From NCBI GenBank assembly GCA_944415425.1, contig CALYBP010000004.1, positions 1 through 64,000 of the forward strand: 64,000 nt of DNA, in the 5' to 3' direction. This DNA comes from an uncultured Ruminococcus sp. Lineage in GTDB: Bacteria; Bacillota; Clostridia; Oscillospirales; Acutalibacteraceae. A program made the translations under genes and the position numbers. A model generated the notes under the pieces. That model was not told where the DNA came from. It worked only from the letters and a program-made list of their open reading frames with translations, and did no database searches. Below, piece after piece: positions 16,471-21,769 of this stretch (positions are counted from its first letter, which is position 1; every line of letters starts with the position of its first letter).

Positions 16471-16525
16471 AAAAGTCCGATAAATAAGCCGATGTCAGTG
16501 AACGGCTTGTTAATCGGACTTTTTC
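16471..16525 (+). terminator. Terminator of tRNA-Gly
   Basis: AAAAGTCCGAT and AAGCCG pair with CGGCTT and ATCGGACTTTT, a long two-part stem followed by a T run. A similar CCGAT/AAGCC design follows tRNA-Ser at 55.7 kb. Confidence 0.85.
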
Positions 16526-16602
16526 TTATCTGTTTTTCTGTCCTCTGATAAATGCAGTGGCAACAAATAGAGTCTGTGTAAATAAAATATAATTTAAAAG
16601 GC

Positions 16603-16669
16603 AGAGCATATTGAAAAATCCGTTAAAAGGAGTCGGCAAAAACCGAAAACGGAGGTTCCAATATGCTCT
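16603..16669 (+). repeat. Nested inverted repeat (long hairpin)
   Basis: Three nested stems are visible: outer AGAGCATATTG (16603-16613) with CAATATGCTCT (16659-16669), middle CCGTT (16620-16624) with AACGG (16648-16652), inner TCGG with CCGA around a five-A loop. AT-rich arms extend the outer stem weakly. It could be an RNA leader, a small RNA, or an end of a decayed mobile element. Confidence 0.6.
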
Positions 16670-16737
16670 ATAATAGTTTTACAGAAAAATTATATTATGA
16701 CCGGTTTAAACAATGTTATTTAAAATATCACTTATGA
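16663..16737 (+). CDS. Putative 24-residue micro-ORF behind hairpin
   Basis: ATG at 16663 has GGAGG (16651-16655) at 7-base spacing and runs 24 codons to TGA at 16737. The peptide begins MLYNSFTEKLYYDRF. I do not recognise it. The ATG and binding site lie in the right arm of the hairpin, so folding would hide them. The 3' part overlaps the end of the convergent gene at 16706. It may be a leader peptide, the decayed 5' end of a transposase gene, or chance. Confidence 0.3.
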   Translation: MLYNSFTEKLYYDRFKQCYLKYHL

Positions 16738-17209
16738 AGCTTATATCAAGAATAGGCACAATAATGAAATACGGTGCGTTGAGGATTGAAGAAATTAACA
16801 AAAATATTCTTTTTTGATTTTTGGGCATTTTTAAATTTTTATAAACAATAAATCTATGAAAACAGAATATTATTATCAACGCCGTAACAAGCTCAATAAC
16901 GGCAAATAAGATATAGCTTCCGATCGAAACATTAGTAATCAATCCGCCAAAAAAGCTGTTTACTAACTTTTCAAAAATATTTTCGACATATATGGAGGGA
17001 AACAGGTTCACTGCAAATATAATTGAAAATATTAAATATGTAACTAATATGGCTATGCCGGAAAACAAGCTTGCACGCAATATCAATTTCTTTTCATCGG
17101 TAAATTTTCGTATCCAAACAGAGTATAATATCGTATTTGTAATGGAAATTCTGATGACGCATATTGCTAATAAAGCAATGCAAAATAAAACTATACTGAA
17201 CTTCTCCAT
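16706..17209 (-). CDS. Hypothetical four-helix membrane protein
   Basis: A 167-residue protein with a good GGAGG site. Four hydrophobic segments lie at about 4-26, 44-70, 95-118 and 136-158, so it is an integral membrane protein. Between helices 1 and 2 is a basic loop (RKFTDEKK), and between 3 and 4 another (KNLKMPKNQKR), suggesting cytoplasmic loops. No family is recognised. It is the last minus-strand gene of the AT-rich island and ends next to tRNA-Gly. Its neighbours include toxin/immunity-type genes, so a membrane immunity role is possible but unproven. Confidence 0.6.
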   Translation of the reverse strand: MEKFSIVLFCIALLAICVIRISITNTILYSVWIRKFTDEKKLILRASLFSGIAILVTYLIFSIIFAVNLFPSIYVENIFEKLVNSFFGGLITNVSIGSYILFAVIELVTALIIIFCFHRFIVYKNLKMPKNQKRIFLLISSILNAPYFIIVPILDISFISDILNNIV

Positions 17210-17324
17210 AAATTTTCCTCCTGGTATATATGAATAATATAAAAAATTTTTATCATAACTTAGTTATAGACTGGTTTGTTATAACATAGTATTATGATCC
17301 GTTATTTGATTTTGAATATAAAGT

Positions 17325-18353
17325 CTAATCATAACTAAGCGGAATTTGAGTTATATTATATCCTTTTATCCACGAGTCCGCCCAGCCTCTCGGCAAAAAA
17401 TACTTATTTTCATATGTGTAAACATAATTTTCTGTAAGCATAATATCATCAAAAACACACATATCAGAGAGCTTTTCTAACTTATCGGTTCTTGAATCGT
17501 ATTGCCAAAGGCCGTTATATTTACTGTCCGTGGTTTCCTCAAAAAAAGTATTAACATATTCATGCACATTGAACACAATGTATCTGTCGTTGCATGAAAC
17601 GCTTTCGACATTTGCCATTTCAAACACGGACTGTTTTTTCTGTTCCTGTATATTCAAGAGGTATAAGTCCAATTCATCAACCAATGTTTCTCCTAAGAAT
17701 ACTGTATTGTTGCATAAATAAAATTTAACCCTGTTGTCAGCAGTAAAATCAAAGGTTCCTGCAAGATTTAAAGTCTCCTTGTCAAACGAATTCAAAATAT
17801 ATTGTTTTGTCGTAGGTTTATTTGCAACGGGCTCTCGGTTAAGGTAAATCGAATAGATAAAGTCGGAATTAACATCAAACCAAATCAACTCGCAGCCAGA
17901 ATGCTCTGATTTTAGCACTTCAATTTTTTGAGAATTTAAGTTATATAAGTATATGTTAGTATCGAGCGATACACAATAGTATATCTTATCATTATCAACA
18001 ACAAAATTTGTAACGGCTTTTGAAGTGAGCTGACTTGTTATGTGCGTATTTTCGTTTGTAATATGTAACCCGTCCTGATTGTTAAAAATCAGGTTCTCTT
18101 TATATTTTACCGCTTTGTCAGCATCAACAGTATGCTTGTTATTTTTACAATACAAGTCGACCTTATTTTGGTTCTTTACATTGACAGCAAGAGTGTTATC
18201 CACATATGTCAGATAGCCCCCGTACGAGTCATGAAATTCGTTATCGTTGTCGGGCATCAACTCAATATTTTTAAAATCAAAGAAAAAGAAAATCATAGGT
18301 ATAATGATTATACAACAAACAATAACAATTAAAATAATTTTTTTAACTTTCAT
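17325..18353 (-). CDS. Hypothetical membrane-anchored beta-rich protein
   Basis: 342 residues. A single N-terminal helix (~5-25, very rich in Ile/Val/Phe) acts as anchor or signal. The remaining ~315 residues alternate short beta strands and polar turns with repeated motifs such as DNKIYYCV and SVSCNDRYIVFNV, resembling beta-propeller proteins of the DUF5050 or TolB-like kind. It should face the outside. The function is unknown. It lies 69 bases downstream of the 183-residue gene in the RHS-associated island, in the same direction. Confidence 0.65.
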   Translation of the reverse strand: MKVKKIILIVIVCCIIIIPMIFFFFDFKNIELMPDNDNEFHDSYGGYLTYVDNTLAVNVKNQNKVDLYCKNNKHTVDADKAVKYKENLIFNNQDGLHITNENTHITSQLTSKAVTNFVVDNDKIYYCVSLDTNIYLYNLNSQKIEVLKSEHSGCELIWFDVNSDFIYSIYLNREPVANKPTTKQYILNSFDKETLNLAGTFDFTADNRVKFYLCNNTVFLGETLVDELDLYLLNIQEQKKQSVFEMANVESVSCNDRYIVFNVHEYVNTFFEETTDSKYNGLWQYDSRTDKLEKLSDMCVFDDIMLTENYVYTYENKYFLPRGWADSWIKGYNITQIPLSYD

Positions 18354-18422
18354 ATAATTTTCCTCGCTTTCGGAAAACCAAATTCATATTAAATCATAAA
18401 GCAAATTGGATAACATACTTGT

Positions 18423-18974
18423 TCAGAAATCAAATGACATTTTATCGCAATAAACATCATTATAGTTTTTTAATATATTCTGAATGATTGGGATTATTTT
18501 TGTATAATCTTCTGCATAAATTATAACCTCTGAATGACATGTGGGCTGTATAATGATTTTGTTATTGAGTAGATATAAGTCTATACAGGTTAAGTATCTA
18601 AAATTATTTTCCACAATGTAATCAATAATAATGCCATCATTTTTTATATTAATTAAATAGTGGTTATGTTTGCTTATATTTTCAGTTAAATTCATAAATG
18701 CGTCATATCGATTTATGTCAGACCATTTTTCAAAAATGTATGATTTTTCAGAAACTGTTTTACCTATAATGACATCATCGTTTAATTCAATTAGGATTTC
18801 CTTAATTATATTACTGAACTTATTTGCCAGTTTATAAAAAGAATATTTTTCTTCTAAACTAGCGGTAGTTTCAAATCCTCCATCCCAAAAATCTTTGCAA
18901 GAGATATAATAAAAATCATTTGTATCATACAAAGTTTTATTTATTAGCTCGTGTTTAATTTTAATTTTATGCAT
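18423..18974 (-). CDS. Putative orphan immunity protein of RHS locus
   Basis: A 183-residue soluble, acidic protein without signal or helix; I recognise no domain. The start codon lies 3 bases beyond the end of the collapsed RHS toxin tip and an AGGAAAGG site is 10 bases upstream. In polymorphic toxin systems the gene immediately after the toxin tip is normally its immunity gene. That position is the only evidence for this role. If right, the toxin it countered has been deleted and the immunity gene kept. Composition is AT-rich (many Ile, Asn, Lys), like the rest of the island. Confidence 0.55.
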   Translation of the reverse strand: MHKIKIKHELINKTLYDTNDFYYISCKDFWDGGFETTASLEEKYSFYKLANKFSNIIKEILIELNDDVIIGKTVSEKSYIFEKWSDINRYDAFMNLTENISKHNHYLINIKNDGIIIDYIVENNFRYLTCIDLYLLNNKIIIQPTCHSEVIIYAEDYTKIIPIIQNILKNYNDVYCDKMSFDF

Positions 18975-18976
18975 TT

Positions 18977-19204
18977 TTATAAAACCTTTCCTGTGGGATC
19001 CACATTATAATAATCACCTGTTTTGCATTTTTCGGAGAATAGTGCCAGTTAGGTTTTCCGTCCTGGTTGATTATTTTTACAATATCGCCCTGCAAATTCT
19101 TGACATAGTAGTAAATTGTGCCACCGTATTTAAACGAGATGACATTGCCGTTGGAATCGTAAGATATGTAATTGTATGAGTTGGTATTATATTTTTCAAC
19201 CTAA
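18977..19204 (-). pseudogene. Collapsed RHS/YD-repeat tip fragment
   Basis: In the minus frame from 19204 the peptide has SYDSNGNVISFKYGGT and YYYVKNLQGDIVKIINQ, the typical RHS core. After a short unrelated stretch the frame is lost. In the next frame the sequence ends GDYYNVDPTGKVL-stop at 18977, which looks like the very end of an RHS toxin. A stop (TAG) lies directly upstream of the fragment. It therefore has neither start, full core nor most of the toxin: an internal deletion plus frameshift. A 99-base part is 94% identical to the intact tip at 20640-20738. Confidence 0.75.
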
Positions 19205-19222
19205 GTTAATTGTAATTGAAGC

Positions 19223-19264
19223 AACACCATAATGGGCGTGAAAATCTCACCAATTATGGTTGTT
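19223..19264. repeat. Imperfect inverted repeat between RHS fragments
   Basis: AACACCATAAT (19223-19233) pairs with AATTATGGTTGTT (19252-19264), with an inner GTGA/TCAC stem. No T run follows on either strand, so a simple terminator is unlikely. It lies between the lipoprotein gene and the collapsed RHS tip. Confidence 0.5.
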
Positions 19265-19378
19265 TAAAAATATCTTTTAATTAAAAGGTTAATATTAAAG
19301 GCAGCAGCGTTTGAGATTTTTGATGCGAAATCAGCCGTAAAAATCGCTATTTTCAGTTGTTTTTAACCGACCACGGTC

Positions 19379-19801
19379 TTATATCATAACAACCATTAAA
19401 TCGTCAGGAAATGAAGGTTTTGTATTAACTTCTCCTCCAAGATACTCTCCTTCAAAATAGAAATTTATGTATTTTTCCTCATTTGGTAAAACTTTGCCAT
19501 ATTTTCTTTCTCCATTTTCATCCAGTCCATCAAAAAAATTTTCATATTTTAACCAACCATCTAATTCTGCTTTTTTGAATTTTGCACTGATTGCAATTTC
19601 TACAGGTTCATCTTCCTGGTTGATAAAATATATAGCATATTCAAATTTAATTTTATTACCATTAATTTTATAATCTACAAAATAACTTTTTTCACGTACC
19701 CAACGAAAACCTACTTCAGTATGTTTAGAATTATAACAAGCTGTAAATAAAGTTGCAATTGTTACTAAGCTCAAAAGACAACTTATAATTTTATATTTCA
19801 T
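19379..19801 (-). CDS. Lipoprotein, probable immunity to RHS lipase tip
   Basis: 140 residues with an AGGAGG site 5 bases before ATG. The N-terminus is a lipoprotein signal (hydrophobic ~5-20, lipobox LFTAC with Cys near 21). The mature part is ~118 residues, predicted beta-rich, with many aromatic and acidic residues; no domain recognised. It begins 9 bases after the RHS tip gene stops. In polymorphic toxin loci this is the immunity gene position. A lipid-anchored protein on the outer face of the membrane would be well placed against a secreted lipase. The role is inference from position and topology. Confidence 0.6.
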   Translation of the reverse strand: MKYKIISCLLSLVTIATLFTACYNSKHTEVGFRWVREKSYFVDYKINGNKIKFEYAIYFINQEDEPVEIAISAKFKKAELDGWLKYENFFDGLDENGERKYGKVLPNEEKYINFYFEGEYLGGEVNTKPSFPDDLMVVMI

Positions 19802-19810
19802 GAAAACCTC

Positions 19811-20839
19811 CTATTTAATTATCCTTTTAACAATTTTTGCAACATTATTAATATTTTTACTGGTAAAATACCCCGTATGACCATACCAGCCTGTGAAATA
19901 GGATTTAAATCCCCACCCCACTGTCCAAGATAATGGATCCCAACCGGCATACAAAACAGATACTTTAGTTTTTGATTTCCATGATCTTACTACTGGTGCA
20001 CCAATCAAAACCACATTAGTAAATTTATTTGCCATTTTAACCATTACATTTATTGCTATCTGACCACCTCCGCTATAACCAATTAAATTTAATTGCTCTC
20101 CTTTTGACAGTGGTTTCTTCTTTAAATCATCTTTAATAATTTTTATAACATAACTTGTATATACATCAAAATTTAGCATTTCTAAAAAAACTTTGGCAAC
20201 ACCTTTAACCGTACCTTTAAACCCTGCTTTCCCTTTGTATAAAGCAATTAATCTAAAATCTTTCACAGATGATAATTTCTTCTTAAAATCATTAGCATAT
20301 TTAGGAATACCATTTAGTCCATCATTATTTATACCATTCAAAAAATATGTTCTTGTACCATAGGGATCAAACGAGAATATACTATTATTCTCACAATAAG
20401 CAAACATATTTGTGCTTAGCGGAGAGCCGGATTGCGTATCACAATAAACATCCGCATTTATAAATCTGCCTGTAAAGGGATCGTAGTAGCGGCTTTGGAG
20501 ATAGTAAAGACCACTTTCGCTGTCATAGACATATCCACGGTAGCAAAACGGGTTAAGCTCTCGAAGTGTTGAATCACCCGACACGCTCTTGATATTTCCC
20601 CATGCGTCATATACATAGCTTGCATATACCGTGCCTGCTTGGTTGATGATTTTTACAATATCGCCCTGCAAATTCTTGACATAGTAGTACATTGTACCGC
20701 CGTATTTAAACGAGGTGACATTGCCGTCGGAATCGTAATAGAATAGCAGAGTATTATTGCCTTTGGTCATACCTATTAGGTTTTTATCGCTGTCGTAATA
20801 GTAATAGGTTGTTCCGCTGTTATCTGTCTTTTGCGTACG
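19811..20839 (-). pseudogene. Orphan RHS tip with alpha/beta-hydrolase toxin domain
   Basis: The frame is open from a stop at 20840-20842 to 19811; the first ATG is at 20770 (319 residues). YD-repeat motifs cover the N-terminal part, and the RHS core ends with YYLQSRYYDPFTGRF and FDPYG. The C-terminal ~180 residues are an alpha/beta-hydrolase tip: YFLNGINNDG (oxyanion region), nucleophile elbow GYSGGG (Ser near 231), a candidate Asp in GWDPLS (~278) and a candidate His in GHTGYF (~297). This suggests a lipase or esterase toxin. There is no secretion signal or N-terminal shell, so this is either a 5'-truncated remnant or a silent exchange cassette. The toxin part itself appears intact. Confidence 0.8.
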
Positions 20840-21103
20840 CTAATTTTTTGTATTAGTATTTTTATTGTCATAATTATACAATACGGGTTAGTAAAAAGAA
20901 ATTCGCAAAGCATACCAATTTGTATAGTATAAATAGTGCAAATTGCACATATTATACAAATATCAAGTGTATGCATTTTTGCATACGCCTGATATTGTTT
21001 TATATTAATATGATATTGTCTAAAAATTCACTTTAGTGTGATAACTCACAAAAATATAATGATGTTAATAACGACGTATTTTAGAAATCAAACATTTTTT
21101 TCG

Positions 21104-21769
21104 TTAACCGTTTTTTGTATAGTTTTTAATATTTCGTTCCGCGTACTGTATAAGATTAAAAAGAGATGAAGCGCCTTTTTCAAAATAATTCATAATAAAT
21201 TCTGGTGATAACGACAAAGAAAGTTGATTTTTTTCAATAATTGAATCGATATTTTCAATATCTATCATCATTGAAGCAAATGTAAGATTTTTATACTTGC
21301 TTTTATCTATCGAAAAAATATTCTGCGAGTTTTTTTCATTAGCCGAATACAGAGTCCTGAATATCTGGTATTCTCCATTCATAAGATAATTGCTTACATT
21401 GTTAGTGAGCGTTTTGTTGCCTATTTGAGCGAGTAAATCAAAAATTACGGTGGCGGTGTTCATCAAAAGCTTTTTATTAATTTGATTTATCATATTTCCC
21501 TGCATATGTCGGATTTCTTCACTTTCAGGGAAGTCGTCGGGCGTAACTGACGCAAGTTTTCTTTGAACCGTACGACCGAGTATGTAGTCACAAGAAACAT
21601 CAAAATACTCCGATACCTTTACCAAAAATTCAAGCCCGCATTCTCTTATTCCTTTTTCGTAGTGTGAAAGCAGAGCCTGAGAAATGCCTAAATCCTCTGC
21701 AACTTGTTTTTGACTGAGACCTTTTTCTTTTCTAAGATAAGTTAATATTCTCGGAAAATCCCTATTCAA
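21104..21769 (-). CDS. XRE-family transcriptional regulator
   Basis: The N-terminal helix-turn-helix (~3-60) has LSQKQVAEDLGISQALLSHYEKG, the lambda-repressor type. About 150 C-terminal residues are helical and unrecognised; they may sense a signal or form oligomers. The TTG at 21769 has GAGGTG 6 bases upstream, giving 221 residues; the GTG at 21778 overlaps that site and is less likely. It is divergent from the histidine phosphatase gene over a 107-base AT-rich interval with a palindrome, so autoregulation is likely. Whether it also controls the RHS island is unknown. Confidence 0.85.
   Translation of the reverse strand: MNRDFPRILTYLRKEKGLSQKQVAEDLGISQALLSHYEKGIRECGLEFLVKVSEYFDVSCDYILGRTVQRKLASVTPDDFPESEEIRHMQGNMINQINKKLLMNTATVIFDLLAQIGNKTLTNNVSNYLMNGEYQIFRTLYSANEKNSQNIFSIDKSKYKNLTFASMMIDIENIDSIIEKNQLSLSLSPEFIMNYFEKGASSLFNLIQYAERNIKNYTKNG

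Follow-up and report, generated by a model that had tools for sequence, protein, structure and literature searches.

An orphan RHS tip with a predicted alpha/beta-hydrolase fold and a candidate lipoprotein immunity gene in an apparently decayed toxin island of an uncultured Ruminococcus

Anatomy of the locus

The window is a 64,000-nucleotide stretch of one contig from an uncultured Ruminococcus sp. On its minus strand, an open frame running from 20839 to 19811 encodes the C-terminal end of an RHS protein. The upstream part (20357..20839, -) is an RHS core fragment that ends in DPYG; residues 54-138, counted from the first ATG at 20770, match TIGR03696 (Rhs_assc_core) above the cut-off (E 1.2e-18). 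The 181 residues after DPYG (19814-20356, -) make up the tip, which together with its stop codon spans 19811..20356. A gene for a 140-aa lipoprotein (19379..19801, -) follows directly. Sister genomes share the core at 83-86% identity as far as approximately DPYG and carry different tips, which identifies the tip as a variable C-terminal domain past a DPxG junction. The original prediction of an RHS core ending in DPYG and followed by about 180 residues thus describes the gene accurately.

The core fragment has neither an export signal nor a good start site. At ATG 20770 no ribosome-binding site comparable to the TAGGAGG of the lipoprotein gene was read from the sequence, and at the DNA level there is a sharp edge at 20840 where homology to RHS genes of the genus sets in (three contigs of relatives, from G029 and G008; 79-91% identity). 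The fragment and its tip are therefore an orphan tip. The N-terminal RHS shell is absent at the locus, as had been predicted, and RHS_repeat has no match anywhere in the 81 contigs of the assembly. These contigs contain no main rhs gene either, although in an assembly of this kind the main gene may be missed. The only other RHS fragment in the genome is short: an orphan tip on contig C56 (G000:C56:67-711, -) whose truncated core contains a TGA.

A non-coding stretch of approximately 140 bases (20870-21010) just upstream of the orphan tip has a copy (77%) at G000:C56:5979-6118, on the same contig as the other RHS fragment. There it precedes a lipoprotein gene (LITGC lipobox, 191 aa). The repeat may be a shared promoter region or a small mobile repeat.

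Orphan tips and immunity genes in the surrounding island

The tip and lipoprotein genes are part of a variable region between clpC and an HTH gene (16476..21122). In a sister species, G029:C23 aligns on both sides of the region (82-85%) and carries an unrelated 1.5-kb segment in between. The region includes the remnant of a second RHS tip (18976..19200, -), in which a deletion has fused a core copy to the out-of-frame end of another toxin. The core copy (19054-19170) has a core match of 79%, and positions 19062-19162 are about 87% identical in DNA to RHS genes of G029. The out-of-frame scrap after the core resembles the end of a tip in G033:C6. Next to the remnant, an intact gene (18423..18974, -) encodes a 183-aa protein of cytosolic type, which we assign as the orphan immunity gene of the broken tip. 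A relative of this protein (49% identical) lies directly behind a full-length RHS gene in G033:C6 (L172), where the intact counterpart of the broken pair is found.

Two more genes may belong to the same collection. One encodes a 342-aa protein with a single N-terminal membrane helix and no family match (17325..18353, -); by its position in the island it is possibly a further orphan immunity gene. The other encodes a 167-aa polytopic membrane protein (16706..17209, -) and is likely to be one; in the sister genome (G029:C71), an RHS fragment is followed by DNA 90% identical to it. Because the broken tip with its 183-aa partner and the 167-aa gene have RHS-linked relatives, the region reads as a collection of orphan tips and immunity genes, in other words a decayed RHS toxin/immunity island. 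Core DNA of approximately 100 bases (approximately 95% identical by eye) flanks the toxin/lipoprotein pair on both sides and could serve recombination.

The tip has a predicted alpha/beta-hydrolase fold

The tip (19811..20356, -) was modelled with AlphaFold from an alignment with two relatives (pLDDT 76, pTM 0.79). The model contains two low-confidence loops (residues 10-15 and 42-60). The predicted nucleophile, Ser95 of GYSGGG (20072..20074, -), lies between a strand (89-94) and a helix (96-107). The predicted acid, Asp140 of GWDP (19937..19939, -), comes after strand 131-136, and the predicted base, His160 of GHTG (19877..19879, -), after strand 151-154. All three residues are invariant in the alignment and follow one another in the canonical order; the original prediction had proposed this triad from the motifs. 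We conclude that an alpha/beta-hydrolase fold with a canonically ordered triad is well supported for the tip at the level of alignment and model.

A Foldseek search of the tip against the PDB returned 230 chains at E<=0.001, a mix of lipases, esterases and thioesterases. They include the acyl-protein thioesterase APT1, monoglyceride lipase, carboxylesterases and carbohydrate esterases. The highest two-way TM scores in the list (0.67/0.70) belong to 6nkc, a small rumen lipase. The search for lipase or DUF676 folds that had been suggested for this domain thus returned a hydrolase fold and no named lipase family: none of the named lipase families (DUF676, DUF2235/Tox-ABhydrolase-1, Lipase_3) scored above the curated Pfam or NCBIfam cut-off, and the only Pfam matches are sub-threshold generic hydrolases, the best being Palm_thioest. 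A missing hydrolase fold, the outcome that would have spoken against the prediction, was not what the model and the 230 matches gave. A lipase is the likeliest identity of the tip, and we infer that it is toxic.

The tip has very few relatives. Before a degenerate DNA pattern was used, one in total had come from 394 genomes of the order, 398 of the phylum, plasmids, phages and viral contigs, together with a single-sequence scan of 85,000 genomes. Neither the single-sequence scans of viral and genome contigs nor tblastn against plasmids and phages found any. The degenerate pattern, written for RTYxxNGINN, gave 14 genome matches, of which two are true relatives and the others are due to chance. 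The relatives come from a Symbiobacteriaceae MAG (L049, the same protein as L039) and a Dehalococcoidia MAG (L055). Each forms the tip of an RHS protein, immediately behind its core, and in the three-sequence alignment they share 28% and 40% identity with the window tip. All three tips share RTYxxNGINN, the SGGG of the nucleophile elbow, DP, GH and the triad residues. The triad is more than a chance observation, because it is invariant in three proteins together with RTYxxNGINN and SGGG and stands in the canonical order of the fold. Six weak matches (L025-L029 and L040) proved on inspection to be unrelated genes, L026 being an ordinary alpha/beta-hydrolase gene.

The genes behind the two relatives encode different partners. 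One is a 312-aa lipoprotein with the lipobox MTGC, whose gene overlaps the toxin gene by four bases. The other, of 510 aa, has a single membrane helix and is otherwise LRR-like. Both are unrelated to the 140-aa lipoprotein of the window and both are of an outward-facing type. What is conserved in this toxin family is the place of protection, outside the membrane, and not the protective protein.

The lipoprotein and its pairing with the tip

The 140-aa protein has an N-terminal signal and the lipobox LFTA-Cys22 (Cys codon 19736-19738) within the sequence MKYKIISCLLSLVTIATLFTAC; the original prediction had named a lipobox here. Its ATG is located nine bases beyond the TAG stop of the tip, the position expected of an immunity gene. 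A TAGGAGG ribosome-binding site (19807..19813, -) overlaps the toxin stop codon, and for this reason the two genes look translationally coupled. In the AlphaFold model (pLDDT 79), a signal helix leads into an all-beta domain that resembles a sandwich. This fold has no match in the PDB at E<=0.001 and the sequence has no Pfam match, hence no DUF576 domain. The lipoprotein is a candidate immunity protein that probably protects its owner and would neutralise the tip directly.

A search for the lipoprotein in 294 other genomes of the order gave matches in seven, two by chance and five to true relatives, which are 20-27% identical to the window protein. Three of them (L031, L034 and L035) lie directly behind RHS genes with another tip family and the remaining ones stand alone; among the relatives found in these genomes, the lipoprotein family never occurs beside the toxin family of the window. 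The pairing in the window is therefore not conserved. Co-occurrence in other genomes had been put forward as a check on the pair, and it is not seen; the lipoprotein family is instead found without this toxin domain, the very result that had been named as counting against the prediction. Immunity genes are often swapped, so this result leaves the local pairing unrefuted.

The other tip family is marked by SFKSD...GEDIIGYQYLHGTN...WNDxIDPN (L031:1886-2428, -; L034:965-1495, +; L035:161-721, +), and a lipoprotein of the window's family follows in 3/3 cases. It has no significant Pfam or PDB match, and it probably acts outside the cell. A colicin-M-like assignment was considered for this tip and is unsupported by Pfam or PDB sequence searches.

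Lipid-anchored partners are common behind RHS tips in the order

A crude lipobox rule was applied to 119 genes that immediately follow RHS tips; almost all of them come from the order. By this rule 33 encode lipoproteins and 33 soluble proteins, 25 products have one N-terminal helix, 25 are polytopic membrane proteins and three are of other kinds. Lipoproteins make up approximately 28% of this set (33/119) vs 8% (24/304) of the comparison genes, which are the other genes of the same stretches and of the window (Fisher p 4e-7). The enrichment persists without the loci fetched because of this finding (28/113, p 2e-5) and when two doubtful calls are also removed (26 lipoproteins, p 7e-5). Among the genes behind RHS tips in the order, candidate immunity proteins with a lipid anchor are clearly common. 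The original prediction had called a lipid-anchored immunity protein for a Gram-positive RHS lipase unusual; these counts and the TslA/TilA pair of Staphylococcus aureus (PMC10730906) contradict that.

The class of the immunity protein tracks the type of toxin. Twenty tips with soluble partners and 20 with lipoprotein partners were compared, and about half of the tips had no match. Soluble partners accompany nucleases (GIY-YIG, AHH), Ntox21 and a PT-HINT release domain. Lipoprotein partners accompany M91 peptidases, DUF4474, DUF4329/JAB and weak matches to wall or chitosan hydrolases. No matched tip domain crossed between the two groups of 20.

Full-length RHS proteins of the genus start with Sec signal peptides, so their toxins come past the outside of the membrane of the cell that makes them. 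Together with the unrelated, externally anchored partners of both tip relatives, this supports the earlier proposal that the toxin acts outside the cell.

Proposed function and alternatives

The locus probably holds an orphan RHS toxin/immunity cassette, with an enzyme directed at an ester of the cell envelope (probably a lipid), a lipoprotein for immunity and a decayed island as its setting. The cassette is probably silent in its present form, because the tip has no start site or export signal of its own. The flanking core segments could allow the tip to recombine onto a full-length, Sec-exported RHS shell, a step that we infer for this strain. The shell would carry the hydrolase tip out of the cell. 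The target of the tip there would be an ester in a neighbour's cell envelope, with membrane (phospho)lipid the most probable substrate. Anchored to the outside of the producer's membrane, the coupled lipoprotein would bind the arriving toxin or block it.

Several observations count against this reading and lead to alternatives. The tip reaches no named lipase family above cut-off and its fold matches mix substrates: APT1, carboxylesterases and carbohydrate esterases match at similar scores, and the best Pfam match, albeit sub-threshold, is Palm_thioest. The same cassette could thus be directed at esters of acylated teichoic acids or O-acetylated glycans, or at acyl groups on proteins, and wall-hydrolase-like domains do occur among the other lipoprotein-guarded tips of the order. 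We regard a non-lipid target as unlikely, given that the highest two-way TM scores are those of the rumen lipase 6nkc and that the proven Gram-positive hydrolase toxin with lipoprotein immunity is a phospholipase (PMC10730906). The lipoprotein might also be non-cognate: it could protect from a different toxin, for example the SFKSD/GEDIIGYQYLHGTN tip, and a rearrangement would have placed it here. All three of its RHS-adjacent relatives follow that toxin, and the window holds other leftover immunity genes. This account is improbable too, if marginally less so than a non-lipid target: the 9-base gap and the ribosome site over the toxin stop fit an intact unit, an identity of 20-27% to those relatives leaves enough divergence for a change of specificity, and the broken tip of the island has a different, soluble partner.

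The assembly contains no full-length RHS shell that could deliver the tip, and the gene may be a dying remnant. If so, the cassette would be non-functional debris with no role, which would also fit the truncated core, the broken neighbouring tip and the lack of the island in the sister species. We judge this no likelier than a non-lipid target, since the reading frames of tip and lipoprotein are intact, as is the triad, and there is precedent for orphan cassettes regaining activity through recombination (PMC3967940). An envelope-directed, probably lipolytic toxin with a lipoprotein partner is the reading we prefer.

The survey extends beyond this cassette. The best-studied Gram-positive RHS/WapA toxins are nucleases that act in the cytosol. 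By contrast, the count behind 119 RHS tips suggests that toxins aimed at the envelope are a common RHS type among the gut Bacillota of this order. The findings also suggest that the location of an immunity protein, whether on a lipid anchor, on a membrane helix or in the cytosol, is useful for predicting the site of action of an unknown RHS toxin. That external immunity proteins are enriched behind RHS tips in the order is a more general result than the tip family itself. We speculate, tentatively, that the Sec-exported RHS proteins of the order are largely an arsenal that attacks envelopes from outside, and that a few secreted immunity scaffolds, for example the beta-sandwich lipoprotein, are reused against unrelated toxins. 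If true, toxin tips and immunity scaffolds would recombine independently.

Comparison with known systems

A close parallel is TslA/TilA of S. aureus, a proven pair of a T7SS phospholipase A toxin and an immunity lipoprotein (PMC10730906). It too stems from the Bacillota, and it joins an antibacterial Ser-Asp-His lipase, considered to act outside the membrane, to an adjacent gene for a neutralising lipoprotein; the cassette described here has a predicted Ser-Asp-His hydrolase, probably a lipase, and an adjacent gene for a candidate immunity lipoprotein. The architectures differ: the T7SS substrate TslA has its lipase at the N-terminus and a helical C-terminus, whereas the toxin here is an RHS tip, and TilA belongs to DUF576, whereas the lipoprotein here has no Pfam match. 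A lipobox on a polymorphic-toxin immunity protein is also known from Imm65, a family with signal peptide and lipobox (PMC3482391). Imm65 is, however, listed with JAB-type toxins in Bacteroidetes, and no sequence relation to the window lipoprotein was found.

The truncated core, toxin and immunity gene, with no start or export signal and with homology to a full-length core, resemble the orphan rhs-CT/rhsI modules of other bacteria. Orphan Rhs tips of Salmonella are activated by recombination (PMC3967940), and truncated duplications lie behind the WapA genes of Streptococcus suis (PMC12704120). Those modules lie behind a main rhs gene, which is absent from the assembly here. Two S. suis WapA tips were inhibitory to E. 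coli solely when directed to its periplasm (PMC12704120). In the order studied here, full-length RHS genes are repeatedly followed by orphan tips. One locus (L133, G179:C26:48500-63792) has a full-length RHS gene followed by an array of orphan tips, most of them with their own lipoprotein or membrane partner.

Alpha/beta-hydrolase domains of RHS and related polymorphic toxins have been described as Tox-ABhydrolase-1/2/3, with lipids as the predicted target of types 1 and 3 (Zhang et al. 2012, PMC3482391). Imm66, Imm69 and SUKH are among the partners listed for these domains (PMC3482391). The window tip is distinguished by its own signature, RTYxxNGINN...GYSGGG, and matches no Pfam family above cut-off. 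It is a rare new family inside a known class of alpha/beta-hydrolase RHS tips, and it adds to the RHS repertoire a hydrolase tip with defined, predicted catalytic residues. Five other tips carry a GxSxG-like motif; of the four that were read, three (L074, L099 and L102) do not look like hydrolases. The one exception among those read is a second, independent lipase-like tip in the order (L079:2440-3117, -), which carries a class-3-lipase-like GHSKGG and is followed by a partner with one N-terminal membrane helix.
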